A stretch of DNA of 64,000 nt from positions 1-64,000 of the forward strand of contig JADNRV010000214.1 of the NCBI GenBank assembly GCA_015499995.1, given 5' to 3'. This document shows, one piece after another, positions 2,897 through 13,908 of the stretch. The first letter of the stretch is position 1; each line of letters opens with the position of its first letter. The position numbers and the translations under genes are program-made. Origin of the DNA: Flammula alnicola (lineage: Eukaryota > Basidiomycota > Agaricomycetes > Agaricales > Strophariaceae). The notes beneath the pieces are model-generated. The model did no database searches. It was not told the origin of the DNA and was given only the letters and a program-made list of their open reading frames with translations.

Positions 2897-4874
2897 ATGC
2901 CTACACTCAGCACAACAATCGAGGACACGTCGCCTGTGATCATCTACTCTGGCAATGGGGGCGGGGATTGGACTGCGGGGACCTCCAGGCAGGATCCATT
3001 CGCTGACCAGTGAGTCTCAGTCCACGTCGCGCTTTCGCCCCGTCTGATGAGGTGTGCAGGTACTCTCAGAGCAGCTTTATGGTGACGCAGGTTGATAGAG
3101 CCGACGTCTCCTTCACTTTCTACGGCACTGGGGTGCAGTTATACGGCGCTAAACGCCCAAACCATGGCCCGTACCAGATCAGCATTGATTCTTTCGTGTA
3201 TCCTCAAGTAAATGGCTCTGACCCCGACGATCCGGGAACCTTCCAGACAGCTTTGTTTTCGACTGTGGCATTGAACAATGGCTATCACACAGTCAGAATG
3301 ACGAATTTGGGAACAGCTTTCTTGGACATTGATTTCGTGCGTCCTTCCTTGCTCCAATACGTGCGAATACTTCCCAACCGCACAACGAAATATTCTTAGA
3401 TTACGTGGCAAACTCCAGTTGGACTAGCCAATGAATCTCTTATGGCGGTGACTGTTCAAGACTCGGACCCATCATTCAAGTACACGCCAGCATCGGTATG
3501 GAATGCAAATCCATCTAATCTGGGGATGTTTTCCGGGGGTTCGGGGCAGTGCGTCTATATTTCTACTTGTGGAGTGAAAACGCCGTTGAACTGATCTTCT
3601 TAGCGTAACATCAACTGCTGGAGCATGGGTTGAATATACATTCGAAGTGAGCATCATCTGACCTAAACAGTTTGCGACCTCCTGATGGTTCCATAGGGTG
3701 GGCCTTTTTCGGTAGTAAATCTTTTTCTATCTGCTAACCTATGTGGTCAGGCGATTCGGTTGCTTTGTTCGGCCCTGTGGGTCCAAGCTGTGCACCATAT
3801 TCCGTGCAATTAGACAGTGGGACACCTGCGAATTACTCTGCGAATAAGCAGTTCTACCGACCGCAAATGATGCTGTATCAGGCCAGCGACCTTGGAGGTG
3901 GACAGCATACAATTAAGCTGGAATCTCAGGCATGGAACAACTCTGGATTGACGTTCGCTATTGACTACGCGCAAGTGTTTACCACTGCATCGCTCCAACA
4001 CATGTGAGATCACTTCCTTCCCATTTTTCGATATAATTTTGATAATCTACCGAAATGCAGGAATTCTGGGTGAGAAATGATCCTGCTCCTGCTCCTGCCA
4101 TTTCACCTACTTCTTTTCGTCAGATTGTCGGCCGGCGCCATCGTGGGCATCTCGATCGGGGCAATTGTGGCCTTGATCGCCCTTATAGTTTCCTTCTTCG
4201 CCTTCCGCCAGCGAAAGCCTTTGACATACCGGAAAATTTTCCGCCTAAAAGGCAAATCAGAAACCTCTACTCATGCAGCTGAAACCTTTGAATATAGGCC
4301 CATCAGCGTCATCGAGTCGATTTCGAGCCATGGCCCACCTTCGAGTTCGCATGGGCTCCTTCGCTCACAGGTTTCGCATTCCTCGTTGCAAGCGACGCCG
4401 CCGTCTACTGGTCTCTGGCCCTCTTCTGGAGGGACCTATGGAGGGACCTATGCTTCGTCTACCGCCGACCTGTCACCTGGAGGGCGATATGGACCAAATG
4501 TACGGTTTTCTGTCCTCGTTCATCTTTCTTATACATGTAGCCTGACGGTCACATTTCCGATTATATAGACGCAAGTGATTACGATACCCTTCACACCAGA
4601 TGGGAAATACCGGCCTGATATCATGCCCGCGCCTCAGCTCATGCCTCCGCCTCAAGGCGCGCGACGGACGCCATCCTTCGTCCAGAACCAGACGTTGCAT
4701 GCAGTAATGGACGGAGGACTATCAGACGCTGGCGCCAACCGGGAGTCGAGAGTAGAAGATCGACGGCCTTCTCAGCCTCCTGCTGTGCTCGCTCCTGTGC
4801 GGCGGCCTGTGAATGTCGTGAGGGATTTAACGCCGCCGCCGCCGGAATATCGACGCGATCCTTTATGGTTATGA
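2897..4874 (+). CDS. single-pass membrane protein with two beta-rich ectodomain modules (paralogue 1)
   Basis: Exons: 2897-3009, 3060-3336, 3400-3548, 3604-3646, 3697 (one nucleotide), 3751-4003, 4061-4069, 4124-4499, 4569-4874. They sum to 1527 nt, 508 aa. Two repeated modules of about 120 aa (YSQSSFMVTQ..VSFTFYGTGVQLYGAKR; VEYTFEGDSVALFGPVGP) resemble jelly-roll or carbohydrate-binding folds. One transmembrane helix follows (about residues 284-304, SAGAIVGISIGAIVALIALI), then a basic RQRK stop-transfer and a Pro/Ser-rich tail ending PPPPEYRRDP. There is no cleavable signal peptide at the chosen ATG, so the topology is inferred. This architecture is common in Agaricomycetes but its function is unknown; a surface-sensor role is a guess. 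The exon pattern matches the two paralogues at 9.5-11.3 and 12.5-13.9 kb, including the one-nucleotide exon. The 9-nt exon at 4061-4069 is also unusual. Confidence 0.85.
3697..3697 (+). other. one-nucleotide exon (G) in paralogue 1
   Basis: Intron 3647-3696 (donor gtgagc, acceptor catag) is followed by one G and then intron 3698-3750 (donor gtgggc, acceptor ggtcag, 53 nt). Only this splicing joins TTC GAA to G|GC GAT TCG and gives the conserved F-E-G-D-S-V-A-L reading. Removing 3647-3750 as one intron shifts the frame. Confidence 0.8.
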
Positions 4875-6104
4875 TAACGGACGTGAAGTTTGGGTGACTG
4901 GTGTGATTTTCTTCATTTTTCTACGAACAATCCCTAAAAGTGAATGTGTAAAAATAATGACGGACCTTCTGGACCTTTTCTGCTTTTCATTTATTCAAGT
5001 TATTGGTTTCATTTGCCTTACGCCTTACGCTCTTTTTGAAGTCTTCCTTTATCGTATTGTGTTTTCAGAGGACTGTCTATGTGAATGGACTCGGACACGT
5101 TGATATTAATTCTACATTATCTTGCCAATCCCTCTTGCTTGTATTCTTATATTAACTTGCCTGTCTGTACATTTGACTTTCTTGGCGTTCTCAGTCTGCA
5201 GAGCGAACCAAGATTGGGCTTGTGAGCCTATAATGTGCATTATCGATATCGGTTCCGACGTCTTTCCTCCTTTTCTCCGCTCTTTATTTAAGATTGTGAT
5301 AACATTAGATTTGGAGTAGATGGCATTTCCCTCTTCACTATACTCTGTACATTCGCAAAGTTCTCAGAAGATCGGGATCCTAGACCCCGCATGATAAGAA
5401 CTGCTCTTTACGATGGCATCTTTTGTGAGGGCTTTCCTTTCTCTTATGTCTGGGGTACTGACGATGAACACCAACCTTAATTCATGCTCAAAAGTGATAA
5501 ATGCTTGCAGCAGACTGATGTCATAGATACTTCGACGGTGATACTTGGGTTCCGGATCCGGATACCACGGTGTCGTACAAGGGAGCGAGGACTGGAAGTA
5601 ATTGGCGCATATGCTCATTCTCCAATATTACCGATGTCCGACGGAGAAAAGGACGTCCGCACGAGTTCTGGTCCACGGGATGAGCAAGCGTTATCTTCAG
5701 CAGCTGGTGATAACGAACTTTCAGATACGGATGGATAAATCGGGTAAAGAGTAGGGCAATGGGTGAACTGCGCCGCCATACCTCTTCATCGCCTTGAACA
5801 GCATCCAGAAAGTCTGTGGGCTTGGAGCACCAATGGATAAAACGTGGACATGAAACTAGCAAACAGGAAGGCGAAGTTTAAGGTGCCGCTTTTCCGAGCA
5901 TGTGTCACGTGATGTGTCAAGCACCGCGCGGAACTAAAACTTTACAGTTCGCCTCCTCTTCTCCCCTACTAGCACAGTACTTTCTCGTGTTTGCGGCGCT
6001 GCCCCCTCTCTTCTGCCCCCTCCTCTTAGATCCATAAAAGGGTTGCAAAGGACAACTCTTATAGACAATCGTTTAATGCTCGGTTCACGGCCTACTAGAT
6101 CATC
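4875..6104. other. intergenic region
   Basis: This 1.2 kb separates the membrane-protein gene from the carrier gene. The open frames are short and antisense to each other, with no recognisable product. The last 150 nt before 6105 are C/T-rich and probably hold the carrier promoter and 5' UTR. Confidence 0.4.
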
Positions 6105-7820
6105 ATGACCAGTATAGCGGCTAGCAGCTCGCCCTCGACTGCATCACAAACACCACAAAGCACCACATCTGCGGTGCTCATATCCCCTACTCCTAATAAA
6201 TCACTAGTATGGATCAGTCCAGAGGTTGCGTCTTATTTTGTCGGTGAGTACTCGATCTGACCTCCCTCGGTTCTCCGAGAAAGTACAAGGAGGAACTAAA
6301 TCATAATAAATTATGCAGCTGGAGGATGTGCGGGAGCTGCTTCGCGGACAGTTGTAAGCCCTCTGGAAAGGCTGAAGATTATCCAGTTAGTTTATCTCTT
6401 TGATTTAATATTTTACGTTTGAACTGACATAATCATGCACGGTCCAGGCAAGTACAACCGCGCGGGAGTGATGCACAATACAAGGGTGTATGGAGTAGTC
6501 TCCTTAGAATGTGGAGGGAAGAAGGATTTCAAGGATTCATGAGAGGGAATGGGATTAATTGTCTGCGAATTGTGCCTTACAGGTGAGCATCATTATTTGT
6601 GGCGCTGCAGCCCTCATGACCGTCTGCGGTCCGTCCATCTGGGATTGTATTTACCCAAATGTCTTCCAGCGCTGTCCAATTCACCACGTATGAACAGTTG
6701 AAGAAGGTTAGTTCCTCGTCCCCAGTCCCCATGAGTCTGACGTCATTGTGCTTATATTTTCCCAGTTCTTCACGAAACATGGGTCGAAAGAACTCGATAC
6801 CCCAAAACGACTCGCTGCCGGTGCGCTCGCTGGTATTACTTCTGTCTGTGAGTACTCGGACCTCCACAAAGACATGATATCCACCTATTTAATCACGCAA
6901 TTATCCCTGACCATGTTGTGAAATTTACAGGCTCGACATACCCTTTAGATCTTGTTCGGTCCCGCCTTTCGATTGCTACAGCTTCTGTTCCTCTCACCGC
7001 TGTAGCCCATGCACATAAAGTTGCACCAGCCACAGTATCAACGATACCCGTCCAAGCGAAGCATGCGTTAGCATCTGCTTATCATACATCGTCGGCCGTT
7101 GCCTCGAATTTGGCAACGGCCGCTGGAGCTACCGCACCCGCATACACCAAGGCGGATCTGACTATCTGGGGCATGACTCTGAAGATCATGCGTGAAGAGG
7201 GAGGTGTGCGCGCACTCTATCGCGGGTTGGTGACGACGGCTGTGGGCGTGGCACCGTACGTTGGGATTAACTTTGCCGCGTACGAGTTTCTTAGAGGAGT
7301 CATCACACCTCCTGGGAAGAGCAGCGTGTGGCGGAAGTTGAGTTGTGGAGCGTTGGCTGGTGAGTGTCACTGGCTCTGCTCTTATCAATGAGCTTACTTT
7401 GCCTTTTTGATCCCACGCTGACTGTGTATTCGATATGATGCAGGCTCAATCTCTCAAACGTTGACCTATCCATTCGACGTGCTGCGGCGCAAGATGCAGG
7501 TGACCGGCATGCAAAATGGCTCGATCAAGTACAATGGCGCAATTGACGCATTGACGAGCATCGTTCGCGTGGAAGGTGTCGCAGGGCTGTATCGAGGCCT
7601 CTGGCCAAATTTGCGCAAGTGTCCCATTTCTCTTTCATGCCTGTGTCCATCTTGAACTTACCTTGTTCATTTGGCAGTCAAAGTCGCCCCGAGCATTGCC
7701 ACATCGTTCTTCACGTATGAGCTGGTACGTTCACTCTTTCCTCCCTTTCCACCCCCATTTGGTTAATGTTGGTGGTGTTGTTTCTCTTTTCAGGTGAAAG
7801 AGTTCTTGATTCCCCCATGA
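6105..7820 (+). CDS. mitochondrial carrier protein, APS/PAPS-carrier-like (YPR011C/SLC25A42 group)
   Basis: Exons: 6105-6243, 6319-6385, 6448-6582, 6670-6706, 6766-6847, 6931-7359, 7444-7614, 7678-7724, 7794-7820; 1134 nt, 377 aa. The three tandem carrier repeats are visible through their P-x-[D/E]-x-x-[K/R] motifs: SPLERLK, YPLDLVRSR and YPFDVLRRK. Each is followed by the second-helix signature (GFMRGNG, ALYRGL, GLYRGL). The first repeat (AGGCAGAASRTVVSPLERLKI) most resembles the yeast YPR011C group, which carries adenosine phosphosulfates across the inner mitochondrial membrane; exact substrate assignment is inference. The N-terminal 45 residues are Ser/Thr-rich. A long insertion (about residues 165-215) sits in repeat two. 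Intron 7615-7677 starts with GC (gcaagt) instead of GT; only this donor keeps the conserved WPNLLKVAPS reading. Confidence 0.9.
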
Positions 7821-9511
7821 TTGCGATGGAATACTATGGAATGGACGGATGCCTGTGGATTCTGCTTCAAATTAGATTTGTGGATCTTTAACTTAATGCT
7901 CATCTACATCTGAATTTCCGATATATTGGACAGTGCAGAAAGAGATGGGGGGAGATTTTACTTGTACATTCCTGCGTAGTTTGAGATGATAGACGGAGGG
8001 GTGGTGTATATAAATCTGTCAATGTAAACTTACAATATTGAGTAGCGATAAATTGAGCAGGAAGAACAACAGATTATGTCATGGCTATACGGCCCGATCT
8101 GGCCCAATGTTGGCAGTACGTAGTTATCACGTGAATGTATAAAACCCTTCAATGAAGTTCAAGTTGCGGTGGTACTGGCATTTTACTTGCTCTGTCAACA
8201 TTACTATGCTCTGGCAAGCCTGCTCGTGTTGATGGGCGAATATCCTTTCCCAGAACAGCTGGAAGAAACTTTGGGGACCCATATTGAAATATTCAAGTCC
8301 CAAGTTCTAACCAACTGGAATTCATTGGTTAAATACTCCATGTTGACCTTGACGATCCCGACAGTCTGAACCCTCTGTATTCCATAAGTATCCTTCTGCA
8401 ACAGAAATCTGACCAGTCTAGTTTTGAAATACAGATCCTGGGATGGGGCCGATCGTTACAAAGACAAGCATACAGTACTGTGCGTGGGGCTACTTGCATC
8501 ATGATATCTGATTCCCTTCCGAGCGCTACCTCTTCAATCGCAATGCCACCGATCACCTACCCAATGCTTCTCGCTCCTCGTATCATAACGGATAGAATGA
8601 CCCATCCTCGTTTCTCATTGGCGCGTGGCAGAAATAGAGGTTGGCGCTATTATGTTCTCCTGTTAATCGTCAAGGTGGTCTTTTCGGCAGATGGCCAAGA
8701 CTTTATCAATACCTTGTTTCAGTTGACAGGCGGAAAAAAATCGCCCCTATTTACAGCCTCTTTGAAGATATGGAAACGGATGCACCCGTCTCTATTTAGA
8801 CGAACGCCCATGTTTAAAGCGACCGTACCAAGAGCTCACAGGCGATTCGCATTTCAGAAATGTGAGCCGTATAGGGCGGTATGAAATTCTCTTTTTGGTA
8901 TGTTCCATCCACAGACATTTCAATACCTCGATTTGGGTGTTACATAGAATTCATCAGAATCCTTCGAGCCCGCGTCAGTCACAAAGATCATTTTCCACAC
9001 GTTGTACATCGGAACGCCCTGGATTGCCAGCTTTGCATAAAGCACATCGTCAATGCCAAGAGCAAGTCGATCATTCTTATTCTATTTACAGGTAGCTGAT
9101 CGCAATGGAAAGTATCTACACAGTATCTTCTAGTCATCCATTCGATTCATACTGCGATCGGAAAGTAAGCGGCCACAACACTTGTCTACACTGGAAATAG
9201 ACTGAAGGCACCTCTATGGTTATCTTAAGAAAAATCACTCGTCTGGTTGCCAAGTGATCATGAAACATTATTGTATCCCCAGAATCGTTTGATTCACTCA
9301 ACGCCCAATTGGCTGGGATAGTCGGATAACTATTGAAGTCATACTCACATGTAGTATCCTACTCTTCTTCCCATTTTGCGATACCGCTGTTAACCATCCT
9401 CTCAAAAGACGGATTTATGTATACAACATTAAAACCAGCGATACAGATATTCGGACTTCTACAGCTATTTGAACAATCAAGTACATCTGCGCTCTGCGCC
9501 ATTAAGTACCT
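7821..9511. other. intergenic region with possible decayed coding sequence
   Basis: No intact gene is visible. The first 250 nt are probably the 3' UTR of the carrier. Open frames on both strands are short and unrecognisable. A minus-strand stretch near 9080-8930 reads like protein and is listed separately. Confidence 0.4.
8930..9082 (-). pseudogene. possible gene remnant
   Basis: Reading the minus strand after an acceptor-like aaatag gives an uninterrupted peptide with protein-like composition (LALGIDDVLYAKLAIQG..YNVWKMIFVTDAGSKD), ending at a gag|gtattg donor-like site. Neighbouring stretches on the same strand near 8600-8650 also look coding (ANLYFCHAPMRNEDGSF) but are separated by stops. 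I do not recognise the family. It may be a decayed gene or a gene whose other exons I cannot place. Confidence 0.2.
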
Positions 9512-11330
9512 TCAAGCTATATGCACGCCTGGGTCTCGACTGTACTCTGGGGGGGATGTGTCGAAAGCAGACACCTGCGAAACTTGGATTCCGTCACTCT
9601 GAATTTCACCCTCCATAATGGGACCGCGAAGTCGGTTGGAGTTTCTGCTGAATCGAAGCACCCTCGGTGGCTTCTCAACCTCAGAGCTTGTAGATCGAGG
9701 GGCCTATGAAAGTTTCAGCTCTTGTTCGGTAGCAGATGCAAAGACCTACAATAGAACCTGAGGACGACCCGACGTATGAAAGACTTTCCGTCAGTGGAGT
9801 GACTATATCTCCCTGAGACTCTCGGGGCGGAGAAGAGAACGACGACCGAGCCTGAGAAGGGAAAGATTGTGAACGTTCCACAGTCGCGCCCATTTCAGCA
9901 AAGGGTGATAGGCGATATGGTTCCACGAAACCAGTGTCCAGCCCGGGCTTCTCGGTCATGACAGGATAACGCATTCCGAGAAGTTCACGTCGCTGGCGCC
10001 AGACGAGATAGATACACGCGATGGTGGCAATAATTGCAATAGTTGATGTCATGGAGAGAGCTGCGATCACACCTGCTGGAATTCGCCTGAACCGAAATCA
10101 TCAGTTACATGAAAGCAAAAGATTTGATGACCCGTTACCCAATCGTAGCAGGGGCGATAGATGGCGCGCTATCATTTCTATCAGCGCCCAAGGCATCGGA
10201 GCCAAGAGCAATTTTAATCGACTCACCTTCCTCCCAAAGACGGTGTTGTGTATACATTCGCAAAATCAATCGCTAATTCTCCAGTACCTGACGACCCAGT
10301 CTGAATTTGGAGTGAATGCTGTCCAGCACCAAGGTTCCCAGCATAGAACAACAATTGCTGAGGTAGGTGGACCTGCTTTTCCGCAGAGAAGACGGACGGA
10401 CTGCCACCATCTACCTGAACGGAATAAGACAGGCTGTTATTAGGACCGACAGGACCGTATAGCGCCACGGCATCGCCTGTCATGTAGCGAAATTAACCCT
10501 GATTCTGCTCGAAAAGCGGTACGACTTGCCCTAACATGAGAGACATGGATCAAAAGGGAAGCTCTGGCAGAGATAACAGTTAACTGACTTGAAATGTAAA
10601 TTTCGCCGAAGCAGATGGATCCCGTGTTGCACTAGATGGCAGGAGAGATCAGTGTCGAACTTGTTGAGCGAGACAAGACTCACTGTCCTGAACTTCCGGA
10701 AAATGCTCCCACCGAATCCGGAATCACATTCCAAGAAGATGAAGGGGTATAGATAAATGAAGGATGCGTATCTTGGAAGGTGTTGACAATTAAGTTTTCG
10801 TCATCCTTCCCAACGCTGGTTTGAAAAGCTACCTGGTGGGGGTATAAGTATGCAAATAGACTCATTAGAGGAGCTTACGCACGTAGTCTAAATCAAGGAA
10901 AGAATTGGCAGTAGAAGAGCCACCAGCATTTGTTACTGTCAATTGATGGGATCCTAGCGTTACACTGCTACTGTACAACGTCTGGTTGAATACAGCAGTA
11001 TCCGATTCTCCGTTGAATGTGGAGACACTCCCGCCATCTAGCTGAATTTGGTAGTTCCCGTGATTGCTACGCTTCGCGCCAGCTATCTGGATAGAGGTGC
11101 CGTAGAATTTAAACGACAGCGTTGCTCCGACGGTTTGTGTCAATATAAAGCTGCTCTGCGTATACCTAAAGCCACAGTTGTGTCAGAAACTTCACTTGAG
11201 CCTTGCACTGTCCGAACCAAACTTACTGATCAAGGCTGGAATCGGTTTCTGAAGTACCAGCTCGCCAATTCTCAGCAGAATAGACAAGCATAGGGGAAGT
11301 GTCTTCGACAATGAAAGTGAAAGATGGCAT
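9512..11330 (-). CDS. single-pass membrane protein with two beta-rich ectodomain modules (paralogue 2)
   Basis: Exons (5' to 3'): 11330-11227, 11165-10883, 10832-10684, 10631-10589, 10530 (one nucleotide), 10476-10227, 10177-10139, 10086-9750, 9703-9512; 1398 nt, 465 aa. Exons 3 and 4 have exactly the same lengths (149 and 43 nt) as in paralogue 1, which supports the models. Both modules are present (YTQSSFILTQTVGATLSFKF; TFQGDAVALYGPVGP). The helix lies around residues 293-315 (IPAGVIAALSMTSTIAIIAT..), followed by WRQRR and a tail ending DTSPPEYSRDP. That tail motif matches PPPPEYRRDP of paralogue 1 and may be a conserved cytoplasmic docking site (inference). The intron after the one-nucleotide exon is of GC-AG type (gcaagt). 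It is co-oriented with paralogue 3. Confidence 0.83.
10530..10530 (-). other. one-nucleotide exon (G) in paralogue 2
   Basis: Minus strand: intron 10588-10531 (gtcagt...gttag), a single G, then a GC-AG intron 10529-10477 (gcaagt...gacag, 53 nt). Only this splicing gives TTT CAA G|GC GAT and the conserved F-Q-G-D-A-V-A-L reading. Confidence 0.78.
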
Positions 11331-12493
11331 GTCCAGCAGTGTGAAGGTAATTGAAGAGGTTGACGAGAGGGAGAAAATTAGTGAGAAGAAAATTGAGGCC
11401 AGCTCCTGGCAACATTTCGAACAGAACCTGTCCTGCTGACTTATATAGCGTGGAATCCAACAGAATCAAACTTGGACTCTGCATCAAAGAGTCAATGACA
11501 CAACAGAAACGAACTTGTCAATTCTCCATCGGATATAGCGTACATGGCAACACGATATTAAGTACCTTAGTCTGTTCATCAACTTGCACACTACTGCCGC
11601 AAGTACTGTAGTATACTCCCGGGTCGTTGATTATGCATTTTCTGTCAAAGCTTGACTAAAGGATTATATCGTCGAATTGGGCCTCGAATTTCGAAAGTCC
11701 GAGTCTTGGGCAAGGTCCTGGAAGTTCAAGTTGGTCCTGGGTATGAAAAATTTTCCGGGGAAATTTGACCAATTCTTGTCTGTCACCGGCAGTGACCCAC
11801 ATTTATTCGTCGAGGTGAATTGAAGGAAACGGTTTGAGTAATAGGAAGTCAGGAGAAATCGTGCTTACTAGTCTCCGAATACCAAGATCATCTACGGTAG
11901 TCGTCTAGCCGGTCACGCAGTCACGTAGCTGTCGTACGTCACAATCATTAGATGAGGATATTTCTGAGAGAGGTTGAAATTAGTTGAAACACCTATCTGG
12001 CGGCTGTCTTTCAACTTCGGGAGACTATGTTTACCCTTTAATAAATTGTGTCCACAATGCTGTCCAGAGTTTCAATACAAAGGACCCTAAAATTTCAAAT
12101 AAAAAGATTCCAATCATCTTGCCAGTGTTTTATTTTTCCTTATGTAATGTACATAGTCAGCCAAATTTTATTCTCAATTCTCAGTCCTTGAACTACAAAT
12201 TTAAAGGAACCTCAAGCTTCTGACACTCGAGTCAAAAAAACTCCTCGACGTTGCCTTAAATGACTATCGTGTTGTTAGTACTGGACTCACACCACGACAA
12301 GGAGGGGAAAAAGTGCTCCTCGACGTTGCTTTACAAATTACTTAGTCTTAGTTACCGGACTCACGTCAATGGCATGTCAAGGACGTTTTAAGGTTTGTCT
12401 CGAGCACGCACAAGTCATGCAGAACGACAGTGCGAATACAGTCGATAAAAATATCCCTAGTTCTCCCCGATGTGGGGGGATCAATTTATTTAA
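11331..12493. other. intergenic region with an imperfect direct repeat
   Basis: About 1.16 kb, AT-rich in the middle (11,950-12,240), with no supported gene. Two imperfect copies of a roughly 75-bp unit lie near 12233-12300 and 12308-12375; shared cores are ctcctcgacgttgc and ggactcac. The rest shows only short unconvincing open frames. The right edge is the 3' flank of paralogue 3. Confidence 0.45.
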
Positions 12494-13908
12494 TCACTCA
12501 TCGATATATTTTTGGCGTGCAGAAAACTGCTTCTGTGAGCTCTGGCGGCGCAAACACCACAAGAGGTACAGGGAGCTCAGCAAACCCAGGAATGCAAGAA
12601 CCGAGGAAATGGTCAAGCCTGCAATGAAAGCGGGCGGAATGGTCCTGCATGGAAAACTTTAACGGACGCCGACCCTAGAATTAATCGACTTACTGCGAAG
12701 GCGATCCAATAGTTAGAGGAGCCTGAACGTCGAATGATTTTGGACTTCATTCCTTGACGTGAGTCCGTGTCCGATTTTTAGAAGGCAGAGATTGAGCTGA
12801 CCTTTCAGCTCCTAAAGAAGGAACGGAGTACAAATTGGCGAAATCGACGGCGAACTGTCCCATGGTTCCATTTGTGGGAAGAAATTTGATTCGCAGCGTA
12901 TGAGTTCCACGCCCAAGATTCGATGCGTAGTACAAGACTTGATGAGGTCTCGAACTAGCCTTTTGGGCAGAAAACTGACGAAAAGGACCACCGTCCACAG
13001 ATGCCAAATAGGCGGGAGTGCTAGCAGGAGTGACGAGGCCGTACAACAGGATGAGGTCGCCTGCGATGTTCACGTTTGAGTGTGTGTGTTTAAGCCATTA
13101 AAGAAACTTATACCCTGTCGGCACAGACAAAAAATGGTCATTAATAGCATCGCAGAATGGAAATGAAAATCTTACTTGGAATTTGTACTCTACGGTGGCA
13201 GATGGATCGGTTGTGACACTGAAGTATATCGATTGAGAGATCAGACAAGGGAGAAACAAGACCAATAACTCACGTTCCAGTGCTCCCAGAGAACGTCCCC
13301 GGCCTCGATGTCTGCTGCCAGGATGAACGAGGAAAATAAGTAAATGCTGGGTCGTTGTCCTGGAAAGTGGTAATAACAAGGGGCTCGCTCTGTTTCCCGA
13401 TGTTTCCCTCGAAAGAGATCTGTCAAATGCATCGATACCATTATTTTCTTGAGCTGAAGACAGCCAGCAGAAATCACCTACATAATCGACATCGAGCGTT
13501 GTGTTACCAACGTTTGTCAGAGTAACTTTGTGGAAGCCGTCTTGTAAAGTTGCGTTGAACAATGTCTGATTGAAGAGCGCGACATTGGAGTTCGCATTGA
13601 AGGTCGGGAAAATATGCCCGTCGACCGTGACCTTGTAAAGTCCATGGTCAGGACGTTTGGCTCCGTATATGCCGATGTATGTCCCGTTGAACTGGAAATC
13701 CATCGTCGCACCCGGCGTCTGGGTGACGGTGTAAGTCGCCTGCGAGTACCTAAAAGCAGTGGGTAAGTAAGCTTATGGACTTGAAATCATCGTCATCACA
13801 GACATACTGGTCGAGAGCCGCATCAGTCTCAGAAAACCCACCATTCCAACCGGTGGAGAAGACAAGAGGAGGGCAGGTATCTTTGAGAACTTGGACGAAT
13901 CTGGGCAT
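12494..13908 (-). CDS. single-pass membrane protein with two beta-rich ectodomain modules, short tail (paralogue 3)
   Basis: Exons (5' to 3'): 13908-13808, 13749-13482, 13419-13274, 13218-13176, 13114 (one nucleotide), 13060-12802, 12744-12694, 12644-12494; 1020 nt, 339 aa. Module one carries YSQATYTVTQTPGATMDFQF and GIYGAKRPDHG. Module two carries VEYKFQGDLILLYG. The transmembrane helix lies around residues 293-316 (AFIAGLTISSVLAFLGLLSS), followed by CLRRQ and only about 17 residues of cytoplasm. It therefore lacks the PPEY-RDP tail of the other two paralogues and may have lost signalling while keeping ligand binding (inference). The 43-nt exon 4 is the same size as in both paralogues. Confidence 0.83.
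13114..13114 (-). other. one-nucleotide exon (G) in paralogue 3
   Basis: Minus strand: intron 13175-13115 (gtaaga...cgacag), a single G, then intron 13113-13061 (gtataag...cgcag, 53 nt). This joins TTC CAA to G|GC GAC CTC (F-Q-G-D-L). Any other use of these splice sites breaks the frame. Confidence 0.78.

Follow-up and report, generated by a model that had tools for sequence, protein, structure and literature searches.

A one-nucleotide exon is the limit case of exon size, and such exons have been reported in three nuclear genes: APC11 and VPS55 (PMC4674806, PMC8831610) and CYP621A (PMC12940212). In the published account of Arabidopsis APC11, a single A lies between an AG and a GT in a single-copy gene. 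The base is essential for the reading frame, was missed by annotation and was established with cDNA and base-change tests, and the authors suggest that both introns leave one after another (PMC4674806). The 1-nt microexons of APC11 and VPS55 are described as deeply conserved across land plants and absent from reference annotations, and were shown by reads and RT-PCR; VPS55 of flowering plants is reported to form one clade with the 1-nt exon and another without it (PMC8831610). In Fusarium CYP621A, reported in February 2026, a G in the context AG/G/GT (slashes mark exon borders) completes a Gly codon as its middle base. According to that report, all copies read AGGGT, belong to orthologues of one ascomycete genus and are documented by reads (PMC12940212).

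Here, we analysed a window of 64,000 nucleotides from the basidiomycete Flammula alnicola (contig JADNRV010000214.1), which contains three paralogues, A, B and C, encoding predicted cell-surface proteins with a lone G between adjacent introns. As with CYP621A, the family is fungal, its public gene models are wrong and an uninterrupted relative serves as reference (PMC12940212). In contrast to CYP621A, the lone G is base 1 of its codon, occurs in basidiomycete paralogues and stands in AGGGC as well as AGGGT. Unlike APC11, the Flammula family has G as the base, comprises several paralogues, uses a GC donor at three of five loci and is known from sequence only. Unlike plant VPS55, several diverged Flammula paralogues all carry the putative exon, and the protein comparisons below suggest its conservation in other species. 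The gene models comprise the following features.

2897..4874, + strand, coding region of gene A, 9 exons, 508 aa
3604..3646, + strand, 43-nt exon of gene A, ending F-E, phase-0 donor
3647..3696, + strand, intron 1 of the pair in gene A, 50 nt, GTGAGC..CATAG
3697..3697, + strand, putative one-nucleotide exon G of gene A, first base of the Gly195 codon
3698..3750, + strand, intron 2 of the pair in gene A, 53 nt, GTGGGC..GTCAG
3751..4003, + strand, exon of gene A after the pair, second beta-sandwich domain, phase-1 acceptor
9512..11330, - strand, coding region of gene B, 9 exons, 465 aa
10589..10631, - strand, 43-nt exon of gene B, ending F-Q
10531..10588, - strand, intron 1 of the pair in gene B, 58 nt, GTCAGT..GTTAG
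10530..10530, - strand, putative one-nucleotide exon G of gene B, first base of the Gly194 codon
10477..10529, - strand, intron 2 of the pair in gene B, 53 nt, GC donor, GCAAGT..GACAG
10227..10476, - strand, exon of gene B after the pair
12494..13908, - strand, coding region of gene C, 8 exons, 339 aa
13176..13218, - strand, 43-nt exon of gene C, ending F-Q
13115..13175, - strand, intron 1 of the pair in gene C, 61 nt, GTAAGA..GACAG
13114..13114, - strand, putative one-nucleotide exon G of gene C, first base of the Gly187 codon
13061..13113, - strand, intron 2 of the pair in gene C, 53 nt, GTATAA..CGCAG
12802..13060, - strand, exon of gene C after the pair

The first-pass annotation had placed a lone G at 3697 (+), 10530 (-) and 13114 (-) as the first base of a Gly codon, and this held in all three gene models, which translate without an inner stop. 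Its observations of a conserved 43-nt flanking exon and of differing intron 2 donors (GTGGGC in A, GCAAGT in B, GTATAA in C) were likewise borne out. The length of exactly 53 nt that it gave for intron 2 is correct for A, B and C but is not a constraint, as the range across loci is 53-62 nt (55 nt in the second copies of B and C, 62 nt at locus D). Reading the pair as a single intron does break the frame, as proposed, with one base lost in A, B and C; when the first donor is joined to the last acceptor, the open frames shrink to 214 (A), 214 (B) and 268 aa (C). Skipping the base shifts the frame, and the protein would end short of its predicted membrane helix. The intron 1 acceptor, exactly at AG/G, is also implied by three of the five public Flammula models, P0072 and P0073 for gene A and P0109 for gene C (decoded by hand), and none of the five reads F-x-G-D.

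The survey of the double intron covered the eight F. alnicola loci that matched the second domain at E <= 0.001, leaving out the weaker matches C46, C121 and C13. Five of the eight are distinct loci (A, A2, B, C and D), and the other three are second copies of A, B and C. All eight have the layout intron, G, intron between an exon that ends in phase 0 (F-x) and one that starts in phase 1, with an AG acceptor before the isolated base and a GT or GC donor after it, which upholds the claim of conservation across the gene family. The second donor is GC at three of the five distinct loci. The lone G is the first base of the Gly codon in F-x-G-D; its omission breaks the frame and its inclusion restores the motif. 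A distant paralogue at C223 and C575 reads F-S-G-E within one uninterrupted exon, with the Gly codon whole. Between copies, the length of the intron pair differs by 2 nt in B and by 1 and 2 nt in C, and the exon after the pair is open in frame in both copies of B and C despite these changes. The first-pass annotation had also called the lone G needed. It is the sole in-frame splice common to A, B, C and D, but each copy has other in-frame splices, such as a donor lying 4 nt further downstream (GC in A and D, GT in B) or a 7-nt exon in C, none of them common to all copies.

The downstream donor gives the first alternative, one intron per gene with the product F-x-V-S-D or F-x-V-R-D and no tiny exon; the expected join in B would be CAAGTCAGCGA. 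In all, 13 models from 9 genera, among them the public Flammula model of B, follow this pattern with F-x-V-[S/R/C/G], which corresponds to the donor 4 nt downstream with the phase-1 acceptor. In a quick tree (no mixture model, 186 columns, 30 weakly supported forks, a long-branch warning, 15 of 85 genome models and 12 of 32 transcript-like rows excluded), these 13 rows need 13 changes and do not cluster, a pattern that fits scattered annotation artefacts. The orthologue proteins that we class as transcript-like, from their source and short contigs although no record states RNA, are probably RNA-derived. The join is spanned by 31 of these 32 rows, and all 31 read F-x-G, where eight rows are near-identical Laccaria sequences and at most 24 are distinct. 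The shifted-donor product occurs in none of the 31. It is also not available in C, it loses the Gly that the uninterrupted paralogue retains, and its intron of ~100-114 nt would be longer than any of the 17 other introns in these three genes (46-69 nt, all GT..AG). Taken together, we regard a shifted donor as very unlikely.

Many public genome models break down at the same join. Among 85 of them, counted with a profile built from the transcript-like rows and A, B and C, 27 read a clean F-x-G and 5 show no gap but lack the Gly; another 40 carry indels, and 13 fail to span the join. Indels at the three joins upstream affect 10, 1 and 4 of the 85. In some of the species with clean models, one intron of the pair or both may be missing. 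The counts leave out the sixth join, which varies in every class: 57 of 85 models and 25 of 32 transcript-like rows have indels there. In Laccaria bicolor, the sequence of model P0020 is garbled between the join that precedes the 43-nt exon and the Gly. The eight transcript-like Laccaria rows match P0020 on both sides of this block in the aligned part, four of them with one substitution, and read F-A-G-D. Row and model come from one species only for Laccaria and a Galerina-like pair; the other comparisons are between different species. The comparison with other species used proteins, which collectively suggest that the exon is conserved there. In a 36-row alignment Gly186 is invariant, but because the rows were picked partly for a clean join, this does not count as independent support. 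Its counterpart in the first domain (Gly55) sits outside the join. The matches of the protein searches, two of three of which scored the best nearly 8,000 candidates, included no Flammula RNA. A scan of viral contigs for the pattern gave 6 matches and no relative, and a search of solved structures by sequence gave a best E of 0.56 (P0002), again no relative.

The exon after the pair is under purifying selection in the frame set by the lone G (pN/pS of 0.16 and 0.24 in A, 0.18 in B and 0.00 in C), and purifying selection was absent in the two shifted frames tried with two sequence pairs. This bears on the idea that each copy has a splice of its own and no tiny exon is common to them, with a 7-nt exon in C, intron 2 retained in A and both introns retained in D. 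These forms are the ones taken by public models P0109, P0072, P0073 and P0033, and the 7-nt exon of C is in frame; P0072 and P0073 retain intron 2 of gene A, which could reflect real retention. However, such retention puts a selectively constrained exon out of frame, a separate event is required per copy, and the products do not fit the 31 spanning transcript-like rows. We therefore consider copy-specific splicing highly improbable.

The fused intron would be 104 (A), 112 (B) or 115 nt (C) long, beyond the 46-69 nt range of the other introns. It could be one long intron with a non-canonical end, in which the extra G comes from an outer splice site, as the final base of the second acceptor (GT..CA) or the opening base of the first donor, and the inner sites are unused. 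Judged from the sequences, such an intron would yield the same mRNA and is compatible with the transcript-like rows, since both flanking bases are G and a splice displaced by one base at either end would look just like the lone G in the mRNA. However, a non-canonical splice end would be required in every copy, whereas each of the 17 other introns in these genes is GT..AG. It also leaves unexplained the inner YAG/G/GY (Y, T or C) present at 8/8 loci. With 5000 dinucleotide shuffles per copy and both halves at least 45 nt, a central YAG/G/GY arose by chance in 1.4% (A), 2.3% (B), 0.6% (C) and 2.8% (D) of shuffles, percentages that are not independent, as the copies share ancestry. A single long intron is thus very unlikely. 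The best-supported reading, to which we assign a probability of roughly 85% from the sequence comparisons, is that the lone G is a one-nucleotide exon common to the gene family. We infer that it is spliced in this way in Flammula itself, and the exon was probably already present in the ancestor of the paralogues.

Each copy has a phase-0 donor after F-x, the element YAG/G/GY and a phase-1 acceptor, and the lone G restores the frame. With a one-nucleotide exon, cDNA should contain the joins CAAGGCGA or GAAGGCGA. Both introns are of usual size for A, B and C and would be ordinary spliceosomal introns, removed successively by intron definition, which we propose because a single base is hardly recognisable as an exon. 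Intron 1 may leave first: the G would then join the preceding codon and the second donor would become AAG/GT or AAG/GC, a slightly better U1 match. The loss of intron 1 improves U1 pairing by 0.6 kcal/mol in A, B, C and D, whereas in A2 it worsens the pairing. A strong ordering of the introns by U1 pairing was rejected, given a gain of only 0.6 kcal/mol and the opposite sign in A2.

Recursive splicing takes place at zero-length exons, where the juncture is AG/GT. The likeness, as far as published descriptions go, is that the juncture would act as the next donor after removal of the first intron. Recursively spliced introns are described as very long, whereas those of the Flammula pair measure 50-62 nt and one base stays. 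A zero-length exon was rejected, as acceptor and donor do not abut but have one base between them. We tentatively suggest, as a possibility, that the exon is ancient, predates the paralogues, has been held through much of Agaricales and forms a one-base recursive juncture. Intron 1 would leave first, the lone G would be the last exon base of the second donor (AAG/GY), and this context would permit the repeated change from GT to GC. In this way, a base too small to be recognised as an exon would persist in many mushroom genera.

The first-pass annotation had also raised a stwintron-like pair removed in two successive steps. In a stwintron, a splice signal of the outer intron is interrupted by an inner one. 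The stwintrons of ascomycetes are, like the Flammula pair, neighbouring introns with likely sequential removal (PMC5639578, PMC9024468), and the two adjacent Flammula introns are probably removed sequentially and may follow the order suggested above. As described there, however, a stwintron keeps nothing and its inner intron splits a splice signal (PMC5639578, PMC9024468), whereas Flammula keeps one base with donor and acceptor unsplit. Taking out the entire block, lone G included, puts A, B and C out of frame. The second donor is already complete while intron 1 is still present, and no parse with a split donor or acceptor yields F-x-G-D in A, B, C or D; the in-frame parses number 0 (A), 0 (B), 1 (C) and 2 (D), all with long inserts. 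The suggestion is thus not supported, and we give a stwintron almost no credence.

As far as literature searches show, a basidiomycete one-nucleotide exon, common to several diverged paralogues of one genome and with a GC second donor at three of five loci, is new. The gene family bears on the age of one-nucleotide exons outside plants, and its diverged copies, with different flanking introns and donors, are natural replicates for how the spliceosome handles an unrecognisably small exon. A clean F-x-G read-through at the join is missing from 58 of 85 public gene models, suggesting that the second domain and membrane anchor of this mushroom protein family are probably often misannotated.

Three membrane-protein paralogues were spliced by hand in the window, part of a 74.4-Mb assembly (861 contigs):

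2897-4874, + strand, gene A, open frame of 508 aa, lone G at 3697
9512-11330, - strand, gene B, open frame of 465 aa, lone G at 10530
12494-13908, - strand, gene C, open frame of 339 aa, lone G at 13114

All three have a 43-nt exon with a phase-0 end after F-E or F-Q; next come intron 1 (50 nt in A, 58 nt in B, 61 nt in C), the lone G as a probable one-nucleotide exon, and intron 2, which is 53 nt in A, B and C alike. The exon 3' of intron 2 begins at the second base of the Gly codon in F-x-G-D. The intron/G/intron arrangement was observed at all eight Flammula loci matching the second domain of B (E <= 0.001), namely A, B and C, a further copy of each on contig C778, which seems to be the other haplotype, A2 (resembling A, on C523) and D (on C445).

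Length of intron 2 at the eight loci
A, 53 nt; A on C778, 53 nt; A2, 53 nt
B, 53 nt; B on C778, 55 nt
C, 53 nt; C on C778, 55 nt
D, 62 nt

The first-pass annotation had noted an intron 2 of exactly 53 nt in all three genes; this length is not a constraint, since intron 2 ranges from 53 to 62 nt over these loci. A ninth locus, on C709, is cut off by the contig edge inside intron 2, but its first intron, lone G and GC donor are visible. A more distant family member (C223 and C575) is without introns at this position, and at both of its loci F-S-G-E lies in a single unbroken exon. The reading of D (L050) ends at a frame break in the second exon, and the frame changes at the same place in the C709 locus (L036); D may be a decaying copy, or the assembly may be at fault. 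Both introns of the pair in D are together open in frame by chance between the 43-nt exon and the next exon.

Reading the pair as one intron without the G breaks the frame in A, B and C, as first proposed, leaving open frames of 214, 214 and 268 aa, respectively. Enumeration of GT/GC..AG splices between the two exons (introns of at least 40 nt) gave two stop-free in-frame solutions for A, four for B, three for C and eight for D, and the one-nucleotide exon was the only one common to all four. In the leading alternative, a donor 4 nt downstream is spliced to the last acceptor and V-S or V-R replaces Gly; this is in frame in A, B and D but is not the rival in C, where a 7-nt exon takes that role. 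With the reading frame fixed by the G, pN/pS was 0.16, 0.24, 0.18 and 0.00 (four comparisons, 81 codons), compared to at least 1.4, or zero synonymous changes, in shifted frames (two pairs tried). A central YAG^G^G[T/C] (^, splice boundary) with both halves at least 45 nt arose in 1.44% (A), 2.34% (B), 0.56% (C) and 2.78% (D) of 5000 dinucleotide shuffles per copy, values that are not independent given the copies' common ancestry. Elsewhere in A, B and C, the 17 remaining introns measure 46-69 nt and are GT..AG without exception, and the pair fused into one intron would span 104-118 nt.

The three protein searches together retrieved 117 proteins, comprising 85 genome models (public gene predictions) and 32 transcript-like rows, classed as such from metagenome or read-archive sources and contigs <5 kb. 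The F-x-G join was spanned by 31 of the 32 transcript-like rows, all 31 clean with Gly. Among the genome models, 27 were clean with Gly, 5 gap-free without Gly, 40 carried indels and 13 were non-spanning. At the earlier joins, models with indels numbered 10 (join 1), 1 (join 2) and 4 (join 3), and non-spanning ones 5, 1 and 5, respectively. Fisher tests of indel versus gap-free models gave 3e-16 against join 2 and 2e-12 against join 3, and 6e-9 for models against transcript-like rows, although the relatedness of rows overstates the certainty of all three. In Laccaria bicolor, model P0020 is garbled over a block that runs from join 3 across the 43-nt exon to the Gly; eight transcript-like rows agree with it on both flanks of the block as far as the alignment goes, four of them with one substitution, and read F-A-G-D. 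The Galerina model P0004 is also broken from join 3 onward, and the transcript-like P0060, close to it (87.6% over 242 columns), reads F-E-G-D. These are same-gene or near-same-gene comparisons and help the case for the lone G. The genome models with a clean F-x-G include those of Mycena, Armillaria, Serpula, Leucogyrophana and Psilocybe (P0044, P0052-P0054, P0061, P0103, P0110, P0111), in which one or both introns may be absent.

In 13 of the 85 models, from nine genera, the join reads F-x-V with S, R, C or G as the next residue.

Genome models reading F-x-V
Flammula 1, Gymnopilus 2, Agrocybe 3, Galerina 2
Lyophyllum, Coprinopsis, Phlegmacium, Panaeolus and Collybia, one each

This is what results when a predictor pairs a phase-1 acceptor with the GT found at bases 5-6 of the true donor; the fourth intron base sets the residue after V (A gives S, C gives R, T gives C, G gives G). 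The signature implies that these species have a phase-0 donor and a phase-1 acceptor, but does not imply the G. Decoded by hand, the five public Flammula models all fail to read F-x-G-D, and three of them imply an intron-1 acceptor exactly at AG^G.

Public Flammula models at the join
P0001, V-S inserted
P0033 (model of D), both introns retained as protein
P0072 and P0073, intron 2 retained
P0109, 7-nt exon used

In a quick tree of 93 rows over the region before the join, with many weak forks, A fell in a starred group of 24 rows; a second starred group, of 41 rows, contained B, C and the D model. Both groups span several genera. If of single origin, the arrangement would predate the split of A from B/C/D. 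It would be older still given that the V-signature models of Lyophyllum and Collybia fall outside both groups.

Splicing most likely removes the two introns in succession, by intron definition. Removal of intron 1 would change the second donor from AGG^G[T/C] to AAG^G[T/C], with predicted U1 pairing 0.6 kcal/mol better in A, B, C and D. Since the gain is of this size and absent in A2, removal of intron 1 before intron 2 is weakly suggested. The second donor is GC at three of five loci (A2 on C523; B, window 10477-10529, - strand; D on C445), compared to none of 20 other modelled introns (17 in A, B and C, 3 in D; Fisher 0.004).

Published work describes one-nucleotide exons in the nuclear genes APC11 (PMC4674806, PMC8831610), VPS55 of land plants (PMC8831610) and CYP621A of Fusarium (PMC12940212), and a mitochondrial one in a placozoan. 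Among the listed matches for basidiomycete or mushroom microexons in open-licence literature, no title or abstract opening reports a mushroom exon of one nucleotide.

The predicted structure of orthologue P0002 (mean pLDDT 76.4) has strands up to residue 263, mostly >90, followed by a helix (285-318) and a tail of low confidence. Among its Foldseek matches are carbohydrate-binding modules of families 35 and 36 and a CE2 esterase; scores across the full query are low. For Pfam CE2_N, B was slightly under the cut-off, P0011 over it and P0040 without a match. Based on these results, the A/B/C family is predicted to encode surface proteins whose domains resemble sugar-binding ones. In gene A, a 9-nt exon, GAATTCTGG, also lies between two introns (window 4061-4069, +), upstream of the membrane helix; matching residues are present in P0072 and P0073. 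In the gene C model, the reading frame after the second domain is maintained by an AAG acceptor in the intron at 12745-12801 (-).
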